DNA from: Zobellia barbeyronii
GTDB lineage: Bacteria > Bacteroidota > Bacteroidia > Flavobacteriales > Flavobacteriaceae
Reading direction: 5' to 3'
DNA length: 64,000 nt
Assembly: GCF_018603515.1 (NCBI RefSeq)
Contig: NZ_JACATN010000004.1
Coordinates: 744,001 to 808,000 of the forward strand
The position numbers and the translations under genes are program-made. Of the stretch, positions 19,285 to 28,768 are shown piece by piece (the stretch's first letter is position 1; each line of letters opens with the position of its first letter). The notes under the pieces were generated by a model. It did no database searches, had not been told where the DNA came from, and saw only the letters and a list, made by a program, of their open reading frames with translations.

Positions 19285-19437
19285 GGTCTAGGCTTTCACA
19301 TTTCATAACTAATTCAACCAAAAGACCTACTACAGGCGGTCTTTGAGATATATGAGTCAAACAATTAACGCTTATTTATAAACCCTATCAGCTTTATATC
19401 CGTATTTTTAGAAACACTTTTTGTGCAAAAAAAGAAC

Positions 19438-21918
19438 ATGGTAAACGCTTCCAAAAAATCAAAAAACAAGTTCACCTTAAAAATTGTCACTAGCTACCTT
19501 ATTTTGGCACTATTGGCAACAAGTGTTGGCTATTTTGTATATACAGAAATACAGACCTATATTTCTACCGAGGCTTCTGATGTAAACGATGAAAAGCTGC
19601 TACGCACAAGCTCATTGATGACCAATCTTTATGAGGCAGAAAGTCTATCAAAATTAGCATTGCAAAGCAACGAGAAAATCAATTTTGATGGGTATGCCCT
19701 TAAAATTGATTCTATTCAGGTGGAAATTGACACGTTAAAACAGCTGATGTTAGGTGAAGAGCAGAAAAGCTTATTGGATAGCCTTCAAATATTATTGGGT
19801 CAAAAAGTTAACAACAACAATGAATTACGTAGCCTGAAGGTCAAAAATAATTCAGCACACTCACTAGACCAAGCCCTTAAAGAATTTGAAAAAATAGAAG
19901 AATCTTTTGGTAAGTTTTCTGCAGAAAACCTATTCACCAATTTTGACCAATTATCTCCTAAAGTACAGAAGTCCCTGCGAGAATATGCCGTACTAATTAG
20001 TAAAAACGTACCGGAATCAGACAATACCGTCAAGAATGCAGCTTATGTAGATTCTATATTGAACGTTTCAAAATCTATCCTGAGAAAAGCAAAATTAGCG
20101 GATTATAGATCACAGCGTTCATTGGCACAAAAAGAAATTGAGGTAAACCGTAATGATCTAGAATTGTCTCGTCAGCTTCAAAATATCATTGCTGCGTTTG
20201 AAAAAGAGATTATATCTAGTAGTTACAATACCAGTATTGTAAAAAGGGAAACTTTAAAAAGAACAACGCGAATAGCAGGAATAGCTGCATTACTCGGTTT
20301 TTTAATCGTTGGGATATTTTCTTTCTTGATTACCAAGGATTACTGGAAAGTACAGACATACCGAGTGCGATTGGAGAAAGAAAAGAAATTTTCGGAATCA
20401 ATATTAAAAAGTCGCGAGCAACTCATTTCAACCGTAAGCCATGATCTTCGTACTCCTCTTAATACTATTAGCGGTTATTCCGAACTACTGGAAAGTACGG
20501 AGTTATCAAAGAAACAAAGCGGTTATATTAAGAATGTAAAATCCGCTTCGGAATACGTGGGTAATCTAGTGAACGACCTAATGGATTTTTCCAAGCTAGA
20601 AGCCGGCAAACTCAAAATTGAAAAAGTACCATTTATTCCAGCGCATCTTATTCAAGAAACTGCTGAGAATCTTCAAGCTATTCATGCCAACAAGGGATTA
20701 AAACTCATTCTGGAAATAGCACCACAGTTACAACAAACGGTCTTGGGAGACCCTTTTAGAATTAGGCAGATAATTACTAATCTTATGGGCAATGCCTTTA
20801 AGTTTACTGAAGATGGCTCAATAAGAATTACTGCAACCGCAGAAAAAGGAAAGGATAAAGCTATAACTGCGCGAATTCAAGTAGCGGATACAGGTATTGG
20901 TATTGCCAAGGACAAACAGCATCTAATATTCAGAGAATTTACACAGGCCGAAAAAACTACTGAAAAGAAATTCGGCGGGCATGGATTGGGTCTCACCATA
21001 TCTAAAAAATTGGCTGAGCTCCTTAAAGGTAAGTTGACTCTTGAAAGTAAGCTGGGTGCCGGAAGTACTTTTACCTTGCGATTACCCCTAGAAATTACCG
21101 ATGCCGTTGAAAAACCAGGTGAGGAAATGCCTTATATGGCGCCAAAACTGCGTATGCTAATTATAGACGATGATACCGCTCTGTTGCATATGCTACGCGA
21201 ACTAGCGGAAAGCATGGGTATTACTGCACATACTTTTACCAATTTCCTTTCTATTGAGAAAGACTCTCACCTAGCTTATGATATTGTTCTAACGGATATT
21301 CAAATGCCACAGGTAACTGGCTTTGAAGTGCTGAAAAAGTTGCAATCTGGTGCATACAAACATTACTCGAACCAACCAATAGTAGCCATGACGGGAAGAA
21401 GAGATTTGGGCCCAGAGGCCTACATAGGGGTTGGTTTTTCTCAAGTTTTACAAAAACCTTTTACAAGAGGTGAACTCATAGCTACCCTAAAATTACTAGG
21501 TATAGCTACCCAAAATCAAGAGCCGAAAGAAGAAGAAATAAAAATACCGGAGCAAGAGCCAAAACTATATAATCTAGATATTATACATTCCTTTTTAGGA
21601 AAGAACGAAGATGCCATTCAAGATGTATTAGGTACTTTTTTAAGTGACACGGAAACCAACATGAAACTTCTTGAAGAAACGGTTTCTGCAAAAGATTACC
21701 AGCAAGTAAACCATGTAGCACACCGTATGCTGCCTATGTTCAGACAGCTAAAAGTTGAGAATTGTGTGACCATATTAGAAAGAATGGAACTGGGCACACC
21801 AGAAAATCTTGACCCAGATATCCTTGCAAGCTCCTTTGTAGTCTTAAAACACAGTGTTAAAGAACTAGTAGCAGAACTAGAAGAACGCTTGGCTACAAAT
21901 CCAGATTATAATGGTTGA
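19438..21918 (+). CDS. Hybrid sensor histidine kinase (HisKA-HATPase-REC-HPt)
   Basis: An 826-residue membrane kinase from ATG 19438; a GTG at 19423 adds five residues and is possible. Domains in order: TM1 (about 14-33); periplasmic helical sensor (about 35-275); TM2 (about 280-300); HisKA box STVSHDLRTPLNTISGYSELL with His near 338; HATPase with NAFKFTEDG and DTGIGIAKDK; a receiver domain (LIIDDDTALL, phospho-Asp in VLTDIQMP near 620); and a C-terminal HPt domain with VAHRML (His near 762). This is a complete phosphorelay chain in one protein. Its natural final target is the convergent NtrC-type regulator, whose 3' end overlaps it by 26 bp. Confidence 0.93.
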   Translation: MVNASKKSKNKFTLKIVTSYLILALLATSVGYFVYTEIQTYISTEASDVNDEKLLRTSSLMTNLYEAESLSKLALQSNEKINFDGYALKIDSIQVEIDTLKQLMLGEEQKSLLDSLQILLGQKVNNNNELRSLKVKNNSAHSLDQALKEFEKIEESFGKFSAENLFTNFDQLSPKVQKSLREYAVLISKNVPESDNTVKNAAYVDSILNVSKSILRKAKLADYRSQRSLAQKEIEVNRNDLELSRQLQNIIAAFEKEIISSSYNTSIVKRETLKRTTRIAGIAALLGFLIVGIFSFLITKDYWKVQTYRVRLEKEKKFSESILKSREQLISTVSHDLRTPLNTISGYSELLESTELSKKQSGYIKNVKSASEYVGNLVNDLMDFSKLEAGKLKIEKVPFIPAHLIQETAENLQAIHANKGLKLILEIAPQLQQTVLGDPFRIRQIITNLMGNAFKFTEDGSIRITATAEKGKDKAITARIQVADTGIGIAKDKQHLIFREFTQAEKTTEKKFGGHGLGLTISKKLAELLKGKLTLESKLGAGSTFTLRLPLEITDAVEKPGEEMPYMAPKLRMLIIDDDTALLHMLRELAESMGITAHTFTNFLSIEKDSHLAYDIVLTDIQMPQVTGFEVLKKLQSGAYKHYSNQPIVAMTGRRDLGPEAYIGVGFSQVLQKPFTRGELIATLKLLGIATQNQEPKEEEIKIPEQEPKLYNLDIIHSFLGKNEDAIQDVLGTFLSDTETNMKLLEETVSAKDYQQVNHVAHRMLPMFRQLKVENCVTILERMELGTPENLDPDILASSFVVLKHSVKELVAELEERLATNPDYNG

Positions 21919-23275
21919 TTTTATTATAAAGAGTCTTTCTAGTAACCTGAAGTAATTTGGCCGCTTTCGATTTATTGAAATTGGTCTTTTTTAAAGCTTT
22001 TATTATGCGGTCTTTTTCGAATTCTGATTTTGAAAAATTCTCTACTGTAGCTTCTCTTTCTTTAGGTTGAAGTACCTCTCGCGGTAAAGCATCCATTTGA
22101 ACTTCATCACCAGTAGTCAGCAGTACAGCCCGTTTAATGACATTCTGTAATTCACGAAGGTTACCAGGCCAATGATACTCTTGAAAAGCCTCCCAAACTT
22201 CTGGCGAGAAACCGCCTACGTTTTTATCTAAACTGGCATTCGCCTTATTCAAAAAGTTCTCTGCAAATAGCATTAAATCTTCAAATCGCTCTTCCAGAGA
22301 AGGTATTTGAATCGAAAATTCATTCAACCTATGAAAAAGATCTTCCCTAAAAGTTCCTTTTTCAACGGCTTCTGTTAAATCCTCGTTAGTAGCGGTGATA
22401 ATACGTAAATCAACATCAATCTCTTTGGTACTACCTACACGTTTTATTTTTCTTTCTTGAAGCGCACGAAGCAATTGTATTTGATTCTCGTAAGACAGAT
22501 TGCCCACCTCGTCCAAGAACAAAGTACCTTTATTAGCAGCTTCAAAATTTCCTATTTTATCTTCTACAGCACCCGTAAAACTCCCTTTTATATGACCAAA
22601 AAACTCACTTGTAGCCAATTCTTTAGGTATCGCACCACAATCTACGGCTATAAAGTTGAAGTCTTTTCTTTTGCTGTTATCGTGAATAGCCTTAGCCGTC
22701 ACTTCCTTACCCGTACCACTTTCGCCAGTTATTAATACCGACATATTTGTAGGGGCTACCAGTTTTATATAATCCTCCAATTTCTTAGAAGCATCACTAA
22801 CGCCTTTAACAATGGACTTTAAGTCTACTTTTTCAGCAGCTGGATTTGCACTTTTTTGTTTTGAGTTCTCCTTTATCTCCTGTACTACAGAAGTAGCAAC
22901 TTGGGTTGGATTAGCCTCTACCTTTAAGGCATTGTCTAAAATCATTACAATTTCATCCGGAGTAAAAGGTTTTGAAATATAGTCGAACGCACCTTTTTTC
23001 ATGGCATTTACAGCCGTGCCCACCTCTGCATAACCCGTCATTACTACTACTTGAGTTTTTGGGCTTACCTCTTTTATATCGGATAACAATTGTATTCCGT
23101 CATAATCGGGCAAACGCAAGTCTGTCAATATCAAATCAAAATTAGTTTTTCCAAATTTTGATTTGGCATCTGGGGCAGTGAAGCTGGTCTCTACTTCGTA
23201 ACCGTGTTTTGTCAAAAACTTTTGGAGCATCTGACAAAATGCGGCATCATCTTCAATGATTAAAAGGTTTGGCAT
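21893..23275 (-). CDS. Sigma-54-dependent NtrC-family response regulator
   Basis: A 460-residue enhancer-binding protein. The receiver domain has LLIIEDDAAF and the phospho-acceptor LILTDLRLPDYDG (Asp near 52). The AAA+ domain has Walker A GESGTGKEVTAKAIH, sigma-54 contact loop GSFTGA (Ser for the usual Ala), Walker B TLFLDEVGNL and arginine-finger region FREDLFHRLNEFSI. The C-terminal Fis-type helix-turn-helix is NKSKAAKLLQVTRKTLYNKI. It activates promoters read by RpoN polymerase. It converges with the hybrid kinase and sits beside the small secreted protein genes, which are its most likely targets. Confidence 0.93.
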   Translation of the reverse strand: MPNLLIIEDDAAFCQMLQKFLTKHGYEVETSFTAPDAKSKFGKTNFDLILTDLRLPDYDGIQLLSDIKEVSPKTQVVVMTGYAEVGTAVNAMKKGAFDYISKPFTPDEIVMILDNALKVEANPTQVATSVVQEIKENSKQKSANPAAEKVDLKSIVKGVSDASKKLEDYIKLVAPTNMSVLITGESGTGKEVTAKAIHDNSKRKDFNFIAVDCGAIPKELATSEFFGHIKGSFTGAVEDKIGNFEAANKGTLFLDEVGNLSYENQIQLLRALQERKIKRVGSTKEIDVDLRIITATNEDLTEAVEKGTFREDLFHRLNEFSIQIPSLEERFEDLMLFAENFLNKANASLDKNVGGFSPEVWEAFQEYHWPGNLRELQNVIKRAVLLTTGDEVQMDALPREVLQPKEREATVENFSKSEFEKDRIIKALKKTNFNKSKAAKLLQVTRKTLYNKINHYNLDL

Positions 23276-23384
23276 AAAAGCATTCTAATGTTCTGTATCT
23301 ATCTACGTAAAAATAGCACAAGAAAGCTCTTTCTCTTCTAATTTTATCATAAAAGATACTTTTAGAAAAAGGCCAAAACGCAAA

Positions 23385-23412
23385 AAAGGAACCGTTATAT
23401 CACGGTTCCTTT
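23385..23412 (-). terminator. Hairpin terminator after the tandem small-protein genes
   Basis: Perfect 11-bp stem AAAGGAACCGT / ACGGTTCCTTT with a 6-nt loop, 42 bp downstream of the last tandem copy. A-rich on one side and T-rich on the other, so it could work for the minus-strand unit. Confidence 0.8.
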
Positions 23413-23454
23413 CTTAAAATTGGTTCGGAATTACTTCCTACAATTTAACTTTTC

Positions 23455-23766
23455 TTACTGCTCAATAGCGTTTCCTTCTTCGTCAACGATTAGTGCACCT
23501 GAAGTACCATCTTCTAAAGAAACTTCCAATTTGTACTGATTAGCTTCGTTTTTGTGTGCTGCATTGATAGTAGCACCTGGGTAGTTAGTTGCAACCATTG
23601 CAGTTACTGCTTCTGGAACTTCTTCCAATGCAACCTCAGCAAAAGCATCTTGCTCTTGTGCTACAGCTTCAGTAGCTGTTTCTGCAGCCTCAGCAGCTTG
23701 CTCTTCTTGAGCGAATGCAGTTAAACTTCCTAATGCGAATACAGACGTGATAAATAATTTTTTCAT
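23455..23766 (-). CDS. Small secreted acidic PepSY-like protein, tandem copy 3
   Basis: A 103-residue exported protein with signal peptide MKKLFITSVFALGSLTAFA. The low-complexity Glu/Ala/Thr segment after it (about 21-47) reads AAEAAETATEAVAQEQ. The C-terminal domain (about 48-103) has EVPEAVTAMVATNYPGATI, YKLEVSLEDG and a final DEEGNAIEQ, which resembles PepSY-like folds. It is nearly identical to the two upstream copies; differences sit mostly in the acidic linker. It lacks the upstream TTGGYATCAT box and is probably cotranscribed with the other copies. Function unknown. Confidence 0.8.
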   Translation of the reverse strand: MKKLFITSVFALGSLTAFAQEEQAAEAAETATEAVAQEQDAFAEVALEEVPEAVTAMVATNYPGATINAAHKNEANQYKLEVSLEDGTSGALIVDEEGNAIEQ

Positions 23767-23837
23767 AATATTTTATTTTTATATGTGTATATAATTAATG
23801 GTAATAGTATTATTTGGGGGAACTAATAAACTTATTC

Positions 23838-24149
23838 TTACTGCTCTATAGCGTTTCCTTCTTCGTCAACGATAAGCGCACCTGAAGTACCATCTTCTAA
23901 AGAAACTTCCAATTTGTACTGGTTAGCTTCATTTTTATGTGCTGCATTAATAGTAGCACCTGGGTAGTTAGTTGCAACCATTGTAGTTACTGCTTCTGGA
24001 ACTTCTTCCAACGCAACCTCAGCAAAAGCATCTTGCTCTTGTGCTACAGCTTCAGTAGCCGTTTCAACAGCTTCAGTAGCTTGCTCTTCTTGAGCGAATG
24101 CAGTTAAACTTCCTAATGCGAATACAGATGTGATAAATAATTTTTTCAT
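23838..24149 (-). CDS. Small secreted acidic PepSY-like protein, tandem copy 2
   Basis: 103 residues, same architecture as its neighbours: signal peptide ending LTAFA, acidic Glu/Ala/Thr linker (ATEAVETATEAVAQEQ), and a C-terminal PepSY-like domain ending DEEGNAIEQ. It differs from the third copy in the linker and in AVTTMV versus AVTAMV. The 71-bp spacer to the next copy carries no conserved promoter box, so it is likely read from the promoter upstream of copy 1. Confidence 0.8.
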   Translation of the reverse strand: MKKLFITSVFALGSLTAFAQEEQATEAVETATEAVAQEQDAFAEVALEEVPEAVTTMVATNYPGATINAAHKNEANQYKLEVSLEDGTSGALIVDEEGNAIEQ

Positions 24150-24219
24150 AATGTTCTATTTTTATATGTGTATAATTAATGGTAAAATGCTTTGTCTTTG
24201 GGGACTTTTAAGCTAATTC

Positions 24220-24531
24220 TTACTGCTCAATAGCGTTTCCTTCTTCGTCAACGATAAGTGCACCTGAAGTACCATCTTCTAAAGAAACTTCCAATTTGTA
24301 CTGGTTAGCTTCATTTTTGTGTGCTGCATTAATAGTAGCACCTGGGTAGTTAGTTGCAACCATTGTAGTTACTGCTTCCGGAACTTCTTCCAACGCAACC
24401 TCAGAAAAAGCATCTTGCTCTTGTGCTACAGCTTCAGTAGCCGTTTCAACAGCTTCGGTAGCTTGTTCTTCTTGAGCGAATGCAGTTAAACTTCCTAATG
24501 CGAATACAGACGTGATAAATAATTTTTTCAT
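24220..24531 (-). CDS. Small secreted acidic PepSY-like protein, tandem copy 1 (promoter-proximal)
   Basis: 103 residues from ATG 24531 (MKKLFITSVFALG); an upstream in-frame start at 24594 is rejected because it would precede the signal peptide and overlap the promoter box. Same layout as copies 2 and 3, with Ser for Ala before EVALEEVPEA. A 17-nt TTGGTATCAT box lies 47 bp upstream and a GTGTGTA element about 127 bp upstream, shared with two more distant paralogs. Function unknown; the export signal and acidic linker suggest a periplasmic or secreted role. Confidence 0.8.
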   Translation of the reverse strand: MKKLFITSVFALGSLTAFAQEEQATEAVETATEAVAQEQDAFSEVALEEVPEAVTTMVATNYPGATINAAHKNEANQYKLEVSLEDGTSGALIVDEEGNAIEQ

Positions 24532-24577
24532 GATATAGTGTATTAAGTTTATTACTAATTGATTTCCCTTAGTACAT

Positions 24578-24594
24578 AGAAAATATGATACCAA
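24578..24594 (-). promoter_or_regulatory. Shared TTGGYATCAT promoter-type box (tandem copy 1)
   Basis: Minus strand TTGGTATCATATTTTCT. It aligns without gaps to boxes at 26364-26380 and 27048-27064. The TTGG and the TC near the end are separated like the -24 GG and -12 GC of sigma-54 promoters (10 nt between), although the -12 element reads TTTC instead of TTGC. Confidence 0.55.
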
Positions 24595-24617
24595 TATTCA
24601 TAAAAACATTTAATTAA

Positions 24618-24664
24618 CTGATAAACAATGTATTACATTTTTTGTCGATTTTTAAAAGTGTGTA
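24618..24664 (-). promoter_or_regulatory. Upstream elements of tandem copy 1 (TGATAAACA and GTGTGTA)
   Basis: CTGATAAACA at 24618-24627 and AAAGTGTGTA at 24655-24664 (+ strand). Both lie at exactly the same distances from the TTGG box (24 and 61 bp) as the matching elements upstream of the gene at 26009. Beyond them, the stretch to 24834 holds a TACACAG half-site near 24708 and otherwise nothing I recognise. Confidence 0.45.
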
Positions 24665-24834
24665 TTATTGTAAAATTCTGTTTCCTTTGAGTAATAATTC
24701 CACAGTATACACAGTACAGAATTCGTACATATATTTTAGAAGAACCTTAATTTTTCACTTTCAAAACTAAGGTTACTATAACTTTCAAGTAATTACTATT
24801 ATAAAAAGGAACCTTATACCTAGAAAACAAAAAA

Positions 24835-24855
24835 CCGGTCGAATATATTCGCCGG
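24835..24855 (-). terminator. Hairpin terminator after the cupin gene
   Basis: CCGG-T-CGAATATATTCG-C-CGG inverted repeat. On the minus strand it is followed by TTTTTTGTTTTC. It ends the cupin transcript. Confidence 0.8.
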
Positions 24856-24886
24856 AAGGTTTTATTTAAATAGGTTCTGTTGTATT

Positions 24887-25237
24887 TCAATTTTGCCTTA
24901 AAAAGTCGCCATCAATGATTAATAGTTTTACTCCTTTTTTAGAAATTGAACGATGAGAGCTTAAACCATCAGAAACAACATAAGTCATTCCTTTAGTCAA
25001 AGTTATTATCACCCCACTTTTTAGCTCGTTCTCACAAGTACCTTCCAAACATTGAACGATATGACCTTTTTCACACCAGTGGTCTGCAAAGTAATCCTTA
25101 GAATACTCAACCATCCGAATGCGCAATCCATTATATTGAGTTGTTTGCCAGTATGCCATTCCTGTTTCTCCAACATGTTCAGTTTTCGGAATTTTAGTCC
25201 AGTCTATTGATTGGAAAGGAATATTTTCTGTTGACAT
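24887..25237 (-). CDS. DHCW-motif cupin fold protein
   Basis: A 116-residue single-domain cupin without signal peptide. The sequence YFADHWCEKGHIVQCLEGTCENEL carries the DHWC motif and a metal-site-like His-x-x-x-x-His spacing; the second cupin motif includes GMTYVVSDGLSSHRS. The family is annotated only by fold, and no substrate is known to me. It lies between members of the small secreted protein family and has its own terminator, so a functional link to them is not shown. Confidence 0.8.
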   Translation of the reverse strand: MSTENIPFQSIDWTKIPKTEHVGETGMAYWQTTQYNGLRIRMVEYSKDYFADHWCEKGHIVQCLEGTCENELKSGVIITLTKGMTYVVSDGLSSHRSISKKGVKLLIIDGDFLRQN

Positions 25238-25353
25238 ATATCTTAGGATTTACTTTTCCGGTTAGTTAGTTAATGTTTTAGCAATAAATAGTACGGGAAT
25301 AAACTAGCACTTCCTTTACACCTTACACGTAGTTAAATCTTTTGGTTTTGGTT

Positions 25354-25902
25354 TTACTCCATTCGTTTTAAATAACTACCGTCATCATTTTTAATAAATT
25401 GGATTCCAATTAAAGGTGAGTAAATTATAAATCCAGAATGACTTCCAGAGTTTAATACAAAAACATTATTAAATTCATATCCGTCCGAGCTGAAATCCGC
25501 AAGTGCTTCTTCTAAATTTTCAGTATTTAGACTATCTATTCCATAAAACCCAGGACCATCAGCAACAACGATGTGAGATTTATTTTCATCCCTTTTTTCT
25601 ATTATAGTAGTAAACGTTCTCCCTAAATCTTCAAATATCAACTCATTTTCCTGACTTTCAGCCAACACAACGACGCAGCTATCATCGTCCGAAGAATTAA
25701 GGCTTCGATTTTCAGTTATTTTGACAGTAACTTTAGCAGTTTGCATTTCTTGTTCGTTGTTAATAAACTGAATGTTATCTTGAGCTATTGTACTCATCGC
25801 AGATGATTCAAACTCATTAAGATTGTAGTTGATAGTTTCATCATCTGAGCAACCACACCCATATATTATCGTAAAGCAAAGAATTCCAACAAGTATTTTC
25901 AT
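25354..25902 (-). CDS. Hypothetical lipoprotein
   Basis: A 182-residue protein with a short signal peptide and lipobox (MKILVGILCFTIIYGCGC, two candidate lipid-acceptor cysteines). The mature part is acidic and shows no domain I recognise. It contains a Ser/Asp-rich stretch NSSDDDSC and hydrophobic strands FNNVFVLNSG and GFIIYSPLIGIQFI. A periplasmic or outer-membrane location is likely. It lies among the small secreted protein genes, but its leader lacks the TTGGYATCAT box. Confidence 0.6.
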   Translation of the reverse strand: MKILVGILCFTIIYGCGCSDDETINYNLNEFESSAMSTIAQDNIQFINNEQEMQTAKVTVKITENRSLNSSDDDSCVVVLAESQENELIFEDLGRTFTTIIEKRDENKSHIVVADGPGFYGIDSLNTENLEEALADFSSDGYEFNNVFVLNSGSHSGFIIYSPLIGIQFIKNDDGSYLKRME

Positions 25903-25938
25903 TTCTAAAATATTTAGTTAACAAACTTATTTAAATAT

Positions 25939-25968
25939 AGAAAGGGGCTGCAAATGCAACCCCTTTCT
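25939..25968 (-). terminator. Hairpin after small secreted protein gene 26009
   Basis: AGAAAGGGG / CCCCTTTCT 9-bp stem with a further TGCA pairing inside the loop, 41 bp downstream of the gene. No long T-tract, so moderate confidence. Confidence 0.6.
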
Positions 25969-26008
25969 GACCAAACCAACTTGATACAAAACAAATAACT
26001 CAAGTTAT

Positions 26009-26326
26009 TTACATTTCAATCCAGTTACCATTTTCGTCAGCATACAAAGTACCAGCAGTACCATCTTCTAGAGATACTTCTAGTTTGAACTGATTTGCTT
26101 CGTTTGTGTATGCTTTATCTATTGATGCAGTAGGATAGTTTTTAGAAACTGCAGCAGTTACTGCTTCAGGTAGCTCTTCTGATGATACTTCAGAAAAATC
26201 ATCTTGTGTAGCTACTACCTCTGTTGCTTCTGTAGCCTCAGTTGTTTCAATAACTGTTACTTCTTCCTGAGCAAAAGCCGAAAGACTTCCTATTGCAAAA
26301 ATTGCTGTGATAAATATTTTTTTCAT
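26009..26326 (-). CDS. Small secreted acidic PepSY-like protein (divergent paralog)
   Basis: 105 residues from ATG 26326; an upstream start at 26395 is rejected since it would cover the promoter box. Signal peptide MKKIFITAIFAIGSLSAFA, then an acidic Glu/Thr/Val linker and the domain EELPEAVTAAVSKNYPTASI, FKLEVSLEDGTAGTLYADENGNWIEM. About half of the residues match the tandem copies. Its leader carries the same box and upstream elements at the same spacing as tandem copy 1, indicating a common regulator. Confidence 0.8.
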   Translation of the reverse strand: MKKIFITAIFAIGSLSAFAQEEVTVIETTEATEATEVVATQDDFSEVSSEELPEAVTAAVSKNYPTASIDKAYTNEANQFKLEVSLEDGTAGTLYADENGNWIEM

Positions 26327-26363
26327 AATCGTGTACTTTACATTAATATTCTGATTACTGTAA

Positions 26364-26380
26364 AGAAATAATGATACCAA
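26364..26380 (-). promoter_or_regulatory. Shared TTGGYATCAT promoter-type box (gene 26009)
   Basis: Minus strand TTGGTATCATTATTTCT, 37 bp upstream of the ATG at 26326. Twelve of seventeen positions are invariant among the three copies in this window. Confidence 0.55.
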
Positions 26381-26403
26381 AAAACAAAATAACATTCAAA
26401 TAA

Positions 26404-26492
26404 TTGATAATCAGATATTTAGTAATATTTTCATTTATTTAAAGTGTGTAATAGTGTGTATTTGTTGGTATAACTTGTGTAAAATATACACG
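26404..26492 (-). promoter_or_regulatory. Upstream elements of gene 26009 (TTGATAATCA, GTGTGTA repeats)
   Basis: TTGATAATCA at 26404-26413, two direct GTGTGTA copies at 26444-26450 and 26454-26460, and an inverted pair TGTGTA-N5-TACACG at 26476-26492. These resemble binding sites for a dimeric activator upstream of the TTGG box. The rest of the interval to 26616 shows nothing I recognise. Confidence 0.45.
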
Positions 26493-26616
26493 AATAGCCA
26501 AGAGGCAGCCAAACAAGCCTATACACTCGCAATTACCCTAATTAAAATCTTATAGAACTTATCAATCTCAAATAAAACTGCACCCTTATCCTATTGAATA
26601 GAACTAGCGTAAAACA

Positions 26617-26650
26617 AAAAGTCCCGTCTTCATGTGAAGACGGGACTTTT
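26617..26650 (-). terminator. Perfect long hairpin terminator
   Basis: 16-bp perfect stem AAAAGTCCCGTCTTCA / TGAAGACGGGACTTTT with a 2-nt loop, A-rich before and T-rich after, 41 bp downstream of the gene at 26691. It would work on either strand. Confidence 0.88.
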
Positions 26651-26690
26651 CTACTAACTTTTTTAACTATATAGTTAAATAAGGATAATC

Positions 26691-26999
26691 TTATTTTTCA
26701 ATCCAGTTACCTTCAGCGTCTGCATACAATTCAGCAGTTTCACCGTCCTCTTTAGCAACTTCTAATTTATACTCAGCTTCTTCGCTTAAGTAAGCTTTAG
26801 AGATAGTTGCACCTGGGTGAGCAGCCTCTAGAGCTTCAGAGATAGCAGCAGGAACTTCTTCAACAGCAACTTCAGCATAAGCATCTTGAGCTTCAACTAC
26901 TTCAGTTACTACTTCTTCTGCAACTACAGTTTCTTCTTCTTGAGCAAAAGCAGTCATTGTACCTAAAGACAATACTGCAGCAAACATTAAATTTTTCAT
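26691..26999 (-). CDS. Small secreted acidic PepSY-like protein (most divergent paralog)
   Basis: 102 residues with signal peptide MKNLMFAAVLSLGTMTAFA, a Glu/Val-rich linker (EETVVAEEVVTEVVEAQD), and the domain EEVPAAISEALEAAHPGATI, YKLEVAKEDGETAELYADAEGNWIEK. It is the most distant of the five paralogs but keeps the same order of parts and length. Its leader has the TTGGCATCAT box, a TTGATTATCA element and GTGTGTA repeats, though spaced further apart. Monocistronic, with a strong terminator. Confidence 0.8.
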   Translation of the reverse strand: MKNLMFAAVLSLGTMTAFAQEEETVVAEEVVTEVVEAQDAYAEVAVEEVPAAISEALEAAHPGATISKAYLSEEAEYKLEVAKEDGETAELYADAEGNWIEK

Positions 27000-27047
27000 T
27001 TTGTGTGTTTTAAAATTATTATTTGTTTTGATAATCGATTAGTATAG

Positions 27048-27064
27048 AGAGAAAATGATGCCAA
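27048..27064 (-). promoter_or_regulatory. Shared TTGGYATCAT promoter-type box (gene 26691)
   Basis: Minus strand TTGGCATCATTTTCTCT, 48 bp upstream of the ATG. With TTGGCA it is the closest of the three to the sigma-54 -24 consensus. Confidence 0.55.
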
Positions 27065-27098
27065 CAAGTCTAGCACCCCTTAGAAACACATTAGTATG

Positions 27099-27157
27099 TT
27101 GATTATCAATGTTTTAATTTAAAACCAAACCTACATCAAAATGTATACAGGTGTGTA
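27099..27157 (-). promoter_or_regulatory. Upstream elements of gene 26691 (TTGATTATCA, GTGTGTA)
   Basis: TTGATTATCA at 27099-27108 and GTGTGTA at 27151-27157, lying 35 and 87 bp from the TTGG box. Relative to the other two promoters the elements are shifted by 11 and 23 bp, roughly one and two DNA helical turns. Confidence 0.4.
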
Positions 27158-27165
27158 AAAACAAA

Positions 27166-27194
27166 AAAAAGTGTGTAAAAAATACACACTTTTT
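27166..27194 (-). terminator. Perfect 12-bp palindrome: terminator and possible activator site
   Basis: AAAAAGTGTGTA-N5-TACACACTTTTT. Read on the minus strand it is followed by a T-rich tail and lies 36 bp after the DUF4301 stop, so it can act as that gene's terminator. The same GTGTGTA-N5-TACACAC symmetry recurs upstream of gene 26009, so it may also be a binding site for a regulator of gene 26691. Confidence 0.7.
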
Positions 27195-27229
27195 GGGTAA
27201 TTATTAATTTGAGTTACTCCTATACCTAC

Positions 27230-28768
27230 TTACTTTACTTGATGTGCAGGTCGTAATAGGTCGTTTACAGTCTTAACAGGGTTGAAGGTAGAAGAAGGTA
27301 CTTCTACAAAAATGGTGTTCCAGAAAGCCATTGCACCGTTCCATAAACCTGGAAGCTCTAATGCTTTTAACTCTCTACCTTCTTTTGTCTTCCCAGTAAT
27401 GAAACCTTGCTTAACATCTACAAAGTTCATAAGATTATACTTTTCTCCTTTATAATTCTTAACAGCGCAAACCAAATCTACAGGATTAAAGTGCGTAGAA
27501 TTCTTAAGAATACTAGCCTGCTGACTCTTATCCATATCTATTTGAGCCGACTCTATAATCTGAAGTGATATATTACCTTTTCTGTCATTAATCCAAAACG
27601 GACCACCACCAGGCTCACCTTCATTCTTGACCATACCACATATGCGTATTGGTCTATTGATTTTATCTTTCAATATTTCAATCTGCTCGCCAATGCTAAA
27701 ACCAGAGAAACTATCCGAGAAACGAACATTAAGATCATTCTCTAAGAAGCTCTTAATTTCATCTAACTGATTAGATGATAACTCATCATTGTCTAAACTC
27801 TTGGCATAAGCAAATGCTTTTTCCTGAGCGGTTATTAGAACACCAGCCAATACCTTCTTACTATCTGCAACCTCGGTAGCAAATTTTGGTACCGTAACAT
27901 TATCTATATTCTTTATAAAAATAATATCTGCATCTTGCTCATTAAGGTTCTCTATTAATGCACCGTGGCCACCTGGTCTAAATAGAACAGAGCCGTCACT
28001 ATTTCTAAAAGGTTCATTTTGCATATCTACAGCAATAGTATCTGAAGATGGCTTTTGATTGGAATAGCTTACTTTAAAAGAAGTATTGGTGGCTGCAGAA
28101 ACTCGTTCGCTAACATCATTGAATTCTTTATTAAACATATCACCATGCTGCTCGCTAATGGTAAAATGCAATTCTGCGGTATCGCCAGTTTTTGCATACA
28201 CTGATGCTTCGGTCAAATGCTCTTCAAAAGGTGTAGCTGTATGATCACCATAATTATGGAAGGGCAATAAACCTTTTGGAAAAAAGCCATAGTTTAAAGC
28301 ATCTTCTGACATCATCTCTTTTACAAAAAGATAAACCTCTTCATCTTTTGAGGAAGTTTTGCCTGCAATACGTTGCTTTACTAAATCATAAAAAGCAAAG
28401 TTGGTCATCCCTTCAGAAAACTCTTTTAGGGCTTTGTCATTCGTGCGTTCAAAATAACTTTCAAGTGTTTCATTAGCCGGATTGTAGGCATCCAAGAAAT
28501 TGAACAAAGCCTTAAACATACGGGATGCAGCTCCTGATGCAGGAACGAACTTCAATAAAGACAAGTTACTTTGCGAAGCATCAAACTTCTGTATCAATCC
28601 TTTTTCTTCAGCATCGGTAAATTTTGAAAGACCTTCACCCACAGTGGCAGCCTTTTCTAATTGTACAAATGGAATACCTTCTTTAAAAGTTTCTATTTGA
28701 TCGTGTACCTTTTTTTCTGAAATTCCTTTTTTAGCCAGTAAGGCCAAATCCTTTTCTGTTAGTGTCAT
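27230..28768 (-). CDS. DUF4301 family protein
   Basis: A 512-residue cytoplasmic protein of the DUF4301 family. The N-terminal region has FVPASGAASRMFKALF, a glycine-rich loop like that of nucleotidyltransferases, followed by a long alpha/beta body with PGGHGALIENLNEQDADIIFIKNIDNV. The late part contains ICGMVKNEGEPGGGPFWI. A sugar-nucleotide or NTP-binding role is plausible, but no activity is established to my knowledge. Its start overlaps the stop of the NadR-like kinase gene by 4 bp, and it is the last gene of the thiamine-binding protein / PnuC / kinase operon. Confidence 0.8.
   Translation of the reverse strand: MTLTEKDLALLAKKGISEKKVHDQIETFKEGIPFVQLEKAATVGEGLSKFTDAEEKGLIQKFDASQSNLSLLKFVPASGAASRMFKALFNFLDAYNPANETLESYFERTNDKALKEFSEGMTNFAFYDLVKQRIAGKTSSKDEEVYLFVKEMMSEDALNYGFFPKGLLPFHNYGDHTATPFEEHLTEASVYAKTGDTAELHFTISEQHGDMFNKEFNDVSERVSAATNTSFKVSYSNQKPSSDTIAVDMQNEPFRNSDGSVLFRPGGHGALIENLNEQDADIIFIKNIDNVTVPKFATEVADSKKVLAGVLITAQEKAFAYAKSLDNDELSSNQLDEIKSFLENDLNVRFSDSFSGFSIGEQIEILKDKINRPIRICGMVKNEGEPGGGPFWINDRKGNISLQIIESAQIDMDKSQQASILKNSTHFNPVDLVCAVKNYKGEKYNLMNFVDVKQGFITGKTKEGRELKALELPGLWNGAMAFWNTIFVEVPSSTFNPVKTVNDLLRPAHQVK

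Follow-up and report, generated by a model that had tools for sequence, protein, structure and literature searches.

The two-component locus

Within a 64,000-nucleotide stretch of the Zobellia barbeyronii genome (assembly GCF_018603515.1, contig NZ_JACATN010000004.1, positions 744,001 to 808,000; hereafter the window, whose numbering is used throughout), a two-component system lies next to an array of genes for small secreted PepSY-like proteins. The gene for its kinase, a hybrid histidine kinase, meets that of an NtrC-type response regulator tail to tail; next come the PepSY-like array and then a DUF4301 gene (Table 1). Three putative minus-strand promoters, here P1, P3 and P4, precede genes of the array, and these an earlier reading of the sequence (the original prediction) took to share a sigma-54-like architecture and to form a small regulon with the activator encoded next door. 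Our analysis indicates that the three are very probably enhancer-dependent sigma-54-type promoters of a private RpoN/NtrC-type regulon.

The adjacent activator was identified correctly. It has the parts of an NtrC-type enhancer-binding protein, namely a receiver, a sigma-54 AAA+ domain with a GAFTGA-type loop and an HTH_8 domain, and in its receiver, AAA+ sigma-54 interaction domain and Fis-type helix-turn-helix (HTH) it resembles regulators of the NtrC, AtoC and ZraR type. Unlike these, it reads GSFTGA for GAFTGA, as do all 90 motif matches at the PepSY loci that we fetched. No NCBIfam model scored above its cut-off among the matches listed (25 of 114 models). Besides this regulator, the genome has three more strong sigma-54 activator matches, four in all; two of the three read GAFTGA, and the remaining one had no match in the loop motif search. 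Eight weaker matches are probably other AAA+ proteins. The neighborhood is conserved: across 100 PepSY-like loci, the regulator was found at 91, the kinase at 89 and the DUF4301 gene at 90. At eight of the nine loci that lack the regulator, a contig end cuts the locus short; the ninth (L274) shares a contig with L275, which it overlaps. The PepSY-like system is not universal, since only 19 of 60 relatives have a match at E ≤ 0.001. As a further feature of the locus, the kinase and regulator genes converge with a 26-bp overlap of their ends (21893-21918).

Three promoters of one design

Each promoter has a −24-type box TTGGYAT, a C ten bases past the GG, an IHF-like (integration host factor) site and TACACAC repeats upstream. 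The three boxes lie on the minus strand as quoted in the original prediction, with the ten bases it counted between GG and TC, and GG-N10-GC occurs in none of the three. The pattern TTGGYATCATNNTTTCT has two matches in the 5-Mb genome, both at this locus, and the third box is one letter off; the occurrence of this box pattern at three promoters is far above chance. At P4, the −12 register is ambiguous, with some relatives of this promoter fitting GG-N9-[TCG]C.

Table 1. Promoter elements and genes of the PepSY-like locus, in window coordinates
Feature	Positions	Strand	Basis or remark
P1 promoter box TTGGTATCATATTTTCT	24578..24594	-	−24/−12 type, GG-N10-TC
P1 IHF-like site TATCAGTTAATTA (WATCARNNNNTTR type)	24611..24623	-	by eye; family statistics
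P1 TACACAC half-site	24658..24664	-	72 bp upstream of GG
P3 promoter box TTGGTATCATTATTTCT	26364..26380	-	−24/−12 type, GG-N10-TC
P3 IHF-like site TATCAATTATTTG	26397..26409	-	by eye; family statistics
P3 tandem TACACAC half-sites (two, 10 bp apart)	26444..26460	-	72 and 82 bp upstream of GG
P3 candidate enhancer palindrome GTGTA-N5-TACAC	26477..26491	-	pattern search
P4 promoter box TTGGCATCATTTTCTCT	27048..27064	-	GG-N10-TC; N9 register possible in relatives
P4 IHF-like site AATCAACATACTA, one mismatch	27092..27104	-	by eye
P4 TACACAC half-site	27151..27157	-	95 bp upstream of GG
P4 candidate enhancer palindrome GTGTGTA-N5-TACACAC	27171..27189	-	pattern search
Hybrid histidine kinase	19423..21918	+	HisKA, HATPase, receiver (Pfam); two transmembrane segments around a helical periplasmic region (by eye)
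NtrC-type response regulator	21893..23275	-	receiver, AAA+ sigma-54 interaction domain, Fis-type HTH (HTH_8) (Pfam); loop GSFTGA
PepSY-like small secreted protein, third copy of P1 array	23455..23766	-	PF11396 below cut-off; 96% identical to first copy
PepSY-like small secreted protein, second copy of P1 array	23838..24149	-	99% identity to first copy
PepSY-like small secreted protein, first gene of P1 array	24220..24531	-	start ATG 24531
PepSY-like small secreted protein, P3 gene	26009..26326	-	open reading frame and Pfam (PF11396 below cut-off)
PepSY-like small secreted protein, P4 gene	26691..26999	-	open reading frame and Pfam (PF11396 below cut-off)

Upstream of TTGG come elements ending in ATCA, at a distance of 24, 24 and 35 bases for P1, P3 and P4 (by eye), as the original prediction had it. 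Its description of them as TTGATWATCA gives way to a better one, the IHF consensus WATCARNNNNTTR, which the putative sites of P1 and P3 match in full and that of P4 with one mismatch. Farther upstream, P1 has only a degenerate dyad beyond its half-site, and the TACACAC half-sites of P4 begin 95 and 115 bases upstream of GG (both by eye). The region of the P4 palindrome (27166-27194) also scores as a terminator-like hairpin after the upstream DUF4301 gene, in a region with four such hairpins against 3.1 in shuffles, and this one sequence may serve as both enhancer palindrome and terminator.

Conservation and spacing across the Flavobacteriaceae

The exact Zobellia pattern TTGGYATCATNNTTTCT, a 17-mer, is found 25 times across 21 of the 199 family genomes, compared with 8 matches for the control. 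The original prediction had proposed a weight-matrix scan of related promoters. We built a matrix from five distinct Zobellia boxes and scored 16 promoters of other genera, each against 300 dinucleotide shuffles; 11 of the 16 held-out promoters were recovered at p ≤ 0.003, and the scan fell short at the rest, as discussed below.

A larger sample came from lead promoters, of which 213 were collected after adding 79 named loci and 192 distinct ones were kept. At 173 of these 192, TGGYAY lies within 45–95 nt of the ATG, against a shuffled mean of 9.0, and thus the TGG at −26 to −24 with A at −22 of canonical sigma-54 promoters is present in the great majority. Under the same rule, TGGYAY precedes none of 23 internal PepSY genes, 4 of 85 regulator genes, none of 77 DUF4301 genes and none of 64 kinase genes. 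The strict spacing between the two sigma-54 promoter elements is likewise kept: GG-N10-TC occurs in 123 of the 192 and GG-N11-TC in 1. The other N10 classes are CC (23), GC (4) and AC (0), and further registers, which overlap with the N10 classes, are N9-TC (18), N9-CC (21), N9-GC (3) and N8-TC (36). GG-N10-TC is found at least once in all 17 labels, i.e., 16 named genera and one unplaced strain, with genus labels covering 39 of the 79 named loci.

The upstream elements are shared as well. TACACA lies upstream in 168 of the 192 promoters (19.4 in shuffles), and the palindrome GTGTA-N5-TACAC in 72 (0.07 in shuffles). Distances from TACACA to GG peak at 71–72, 81–84, 93–94, 101–105 and 113–114 bp. 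For 271 half-site distances, the best period is 10.4–10.5 bp, with a vector strength of 0.707; among 300 sets of uniform random distances, which are only a rough control because the promoters are related, the highest value was 0.203. The enhancer spacing thus differs among promoters by about whole helical turns, which bears out the shifts noted in the window. Between enhancer and box, a strict WATCARNNNNTTR match is present in 60 of 192 promoters, against 2.45 in shuffles, with distances clustering at 30–32 and 40–42. When the ATCA cores of 87 of the 173 box-bearing promoters are aligned, a conserved A-rich sequence appears on one side and TTA on the other.

Could this likeness simply be inherited from the duplication of one promoter, without selective maintenance? 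The genes are indeed paralogous and three copies are 96-100% alike, and the original prediction had raised ancestral duplication as a source of part of the similarity. However, the box, its distance to the ATG and the helical phase persist across the 16 named genera and the unplaced strain while the flanks of the box diverge among relatives (by eye), and the spacing changes by near whole turns; duplication alone is therefore insufficient. The internal copies are without the box (0/23), and the same type of box stands before unrelated genes. As a full explanation duplication already fails, and we regard it as highly improbable.

The regulon also appears to be private to this locus. Of the five genomic sites with GTGTA-N5-TACAC, two are at this locus (forward and reverse searches each gave 5 matches, against 3 each for a control pattern). 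In all nine Zobellia genomes examined, the same three promoters are picked out by the composite TACACA-N60–90-TGGYAY-N5-TYTC, which has three stray matches besides, each in a different Zobellia genome and unshared; the reversed control gave five. The looser box TTGGYAYNNNNNTTKC gave 65 matches genome-wide against 26 in the control and was discarded as evidence because most of the 62 matches examined lie inside long open reading frames. The 180 bp upstream of the regulator gene in the window contain no TGGYAY, TACACA or TGTGTA, and upstream of its 85 orthologs GG-N10-TC is found in none, so the regulator does not appear to be controlled by itself through these elements.

A second class of −12 element

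For sigma-54 promoters, GC in the −12 element is an accepted hallmark. The canonical consensus is printed as TGGCACN5-7TTGCT in the available part of PMC12316311. Like canonical promoters, those of the PepSY-like genes have GG at −25/−24, a 10-bp spacing to the −12 C, enhancer-like repeats, an IHF-like site and an NtrC-type neighbor. They differ at −13, which among the 173 promoters is T in 123, C in 43, G in only 7 and A in none. The caution in the original prediction about a −12 element reading TTTC was well placed, as T is the commonest base at −13 here and recurs at unrelated promoters. Because GC ten bp after GG is found in only 4 of 192 promoters, against TC in 123, we set these promoters apart from the canonical class, although by their sequence they would work like sigma-54 promoters.

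The missing −13 G raises the alternative that a sigma-70-type or extracytoplasmic function (ECF) factor reads the box, with TTGG as an upstream element and a downstream element around TATACTAA, and that the regulator acts without RpoN. The partial conservation of T at −9 (140/173) and A at −8 (107/173) would fit such a factor. However, after TGGYA the strongest conservation falls at −15 (T in 173 of 173) and −12 (C in 150), the latter 10 bp after GG in the main class with an N9 subset, and no position 16-18 bp downstream is invariant. A scan of 21800-27300 for E. coli-type sigma-70 promoters, whose coverage leaves out Bacteroidota promoter types, gave 18 sites against 17.5 in shuffles. The sigma-54 interaction domain of the adjacent regulator and the helically phased repeats far upstream also speak against this alternative, which we judge to be improbable.

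Is T at −13 peculiar to the PepSY-like array? In 45 Flavobacteriaceae genomes, TTGGCACG-N3-TTTNC has 55 matches (control 17), with T at −13 in 44, A in 8, C in 2 and G in 1. Many of the T matches are supplied by one orthologous promoter, TTGGCACGATATTTTC, present in 28 of the 45 genomes. All 18 fetched loci with it have an OmpH-type motif within 900 nt after it, and the Zobellia gene that follows was confirmed as PF03938 (ompH). In 60 genomes, TTGGCAYG-N3-TTTTC has 89 matches against 14 in controls, and TTGGCAYG-N3-TTTGC has 6 against 9. A further promoter, TTGGCATGGTTTTTTC, is found in 8 of the 60 genomes; all five that were read precede a gene starting like the tail-specific protease of L338 (domains PF17804 and S41), and a C-variant of it in L200 likewise precedes a tail-specific-protease-like gene. 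TTTTC is therefore not private to the PepSY array. The idea of a private −12 variant paired only with a GSFTGA activator is weakened, because the ompH and tail-specific protease promoters share TTTTC and two other activators read GAFTGA.

A strict switch from GC to TC was also considered and rejected, since GC boxes persist: GC at −13/−12 is kept in TTGGCATTCTTATTGCT, TTGGTACATTTGTTGCT, TTGGCATAACATTTGCC and TTGGCATCCATTTTGCT, each in the one or two other Zobellia genomes compared. T at −13 is thus better seen as a second −12 class. One GC-type −24/−12 box precedes a groES-like gene near another activator gene (L182:7268-10640). The sigma-54 activator encoded in that region has no evident receiver and comes after a miaB-like gene, with the groES-like gene further on (both gene names judged from sequence). 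Sigma-54 dependence is given for groES of Bacteroides thetaiotaomicron and grpE of Flavobacterium psychrophilum in the available text of PMC12316311.

RpoN and its −12-reading helix

RpoN (PF04552) was matched in all 60 genomes, with an extra weak fragment in two. According to the accessible part of PMC9770992, HTH residues H377, S379 and R383 read the GC of the −12 element. We compared the RpoNs of the best-scoring 30 of the 60 genomes, mapping residue numbers by position relative to R383. All 30 keep the S and the R, D-V or D-I replaces H377-E378 of E. coli, and the RpoN box ARRT[VI]AKYR[ED] is intact in all. For comparison, eight RpoN genes were fetched from plasmid records (40 listed of 230 matched): six non-Bacteroidota RpoNs read HE, Latilactobacillus SS and Parabacteroides, a member of the Bacteroidota, DI. 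Because Parabacteroides reads DI, the helix change seems older than the family.

The change at H377-E378 only co-occurs with TTTTC; T at −13 is plausibly tolerated owing to the altered −12-reading helix of the RpoN of this clade. The change does not force TC, because GC boxes are conserved between Zobellia species. A wider proposal is that the Bacteroidota RpoN with its rewired −12 helix, in which D replaces H377 and V or I replaces E378 (as seen in one Parabacteroides and 30 Flavobacteriales sequences), serves in Flavobacteriaceae a second promoter class, TTGGCAYG-N3-TTTTC and relatives, for envelope-related genes (the PepSY array, ompH and the tail-specific protease), and that the PepSY array represents the DbfQRS feedback module in an NtrC/sigma-54 version. 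We put this forward tentatively, giving it somewhat less than an even chance.

Confidence in a private sigma-54-type regulon

The confidence placed in the regulon draws on conservation, spacing, phasing, synteny and near-uniqueness in the genus, all of which were computed. The sigma-54-like architecture and the small dedicated regulon of the original prediction have, at the level of sequence, survived testing in relatives. Several observations weigh on the other side. Most of the 25 family sites of TTGGYATCATNNTTTCT were left unread, and there were 8 control matches. Five of the 16 held-out promoters reached only p 0.023–0.077, one of them (L070) with its best match at the wrong place, and 19 of the 192 lead promoters are without a box in the permitted range. 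Because the loci share ancestry, their counts are not independent. The canonical −12 G is missing at most PepSY lead promoters, GC-type boxes are conserved between Zobellia species, and the partial conservation at −9 and −8 allows another reading of the box. The strict IHF consensus occurs in only 60 of 192 promoters, with a mismatch at P4, and the feedback by PepSY proteins considered below is argued by analogy.

What is new here is supported at the sequence level: a sigma-54-type enhancer-dependent promoter set with a conserved non-canonical −12 element and a PepSY-like output. Of the papers returned for PepSY with sigma54, none was on this system as judged by title and start of abstract, and a search for TTTC with noncanonical gave none. 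PMC12316311, in the part available, describes a scan of 33 classes from a seed matrix of 720 validated promoters of 56 species, refined class by class. A scan started from a seed matrix of this kind could under-call a clade in which one promoter class conserves T at −13, although the class-wise logos of that study may already show the variant. Such a clade would also offer a natural test of how the RpoN HTH reads the −12 element.

Proposed mechanism and the role of the PepSY-like proteins

In the model that we favor, the hybrid kinase would sense a periplasmic signal and phosphorylate the adjacent NtrC-type regulator, which would bind, some 70-125 bp upstream of GG, the dyads and half-sites of GTGTGTA/TACACAC. 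With the DNA from enhancer to promoter bent by an IHF-like protein, the AAA+ domain of the regulator would open RNA polymerase with RpoN at the TTGGYAY-N5-TTTC box, with small secreted PepSY-like proteins as the output. Binding of this regulator, RpoN and an IHF-like protein at the promoters is what we infer from these sequences. The regulon would be a compact system of one kinase, one activator and three promoters, tying PepSY-like proteins to two-component signaling in Flavobacteriaceae.

The closest known layout is DbfQRS of Vibrio cholerae. In the portion of PMC12714742 available, DbfQ is described as a small PepSY protein whose gene adjoins dbfRS; its binding to the DbfS sensor domain pushes DbfS toward phosphatase activity, and such PepSY neighborhoods are noted in Proteobacteria, Terrabacteria and Fusobacteria. 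Both there and in Zobellia, a small secreted PepSY protein has its gene next to those of a histidine kinase and a response regulator. The Zobellia locus differs in having an NtrC-type regulator, a hybrid kinase, an array of PepSY-like genes and a PF11396 match below the Pfam cut-off. By analogy, the PepSY-like proteins might restrain the kinase as DbfQ does DbfS, a step that we infer more weakly than the rest. Within the same phylum, BT0922-BT0923 of Bacteroides are also small PepSY-like proteins, regulated by the environment (iron); the available text of PMC10434189 mentions no tie to a two-component system or to sigma-54.

It is also possible, if somewhat short of an even chance, that the regulon is sigma-54-dependent while its PepSY-like products are effectors (envelope chaperones, protease inhibitors or metal binders) without kinase feedback. 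PepSY domains are tied to metal binding and protease inhibition in the accessible part of PMC12714742, and elsewhere in the family TTTTC promoters stand before the genes for OmpH and a tail-specific protease. Against this stands the conserved linkage of the PepSY-like genes to kinase and regulator, which resembles DbfQRS, where the PepSY protein binds the kinase.

The proteins themselves have a signal-peptide-like N-terminus (by eye). They match PF11396 (PepSY_like) at E 6e-5 to 8e-3, under the curated cut-off, and a profile of 21 relatives matches the solved periplasmic proteins 3db7 (3e-5) and 3due (4e-5). The structural model has a mean pLDDT (predicted local distance difference test) of 72.9, about 87–90 across most of the folded domain, and its structural matches are weak (best E 0.09). 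ATG 24531 (gene 24220) and ATG 26326 (gene 26009) are the likely starts, replacing those of longer open reading frames. The tandem triplet at 23455-24531 consists of near-identical copies, 96-100% alike, and Zobellia loci not cut by contig ends have two to four PepSY-like copies. In the kinase, a C-terminal Hpt match is weak and below the Pfam cut-off. Its periplasmic sensor is modeled as all-helical (mean pLDDT 75.9), with a weak Foldseek match to the McpS ligand-binding domain (best E 0.005, TM-score 0.35); an McpS-like helical sensor is only a lead. Between the PepSY blocks, at 24887-25902, lie a DHCW-motif cupin (NF038084) and a 182-amino-acid lipoprotein-like open reading frame (by eye), whose presence varies among Zobellia loci.

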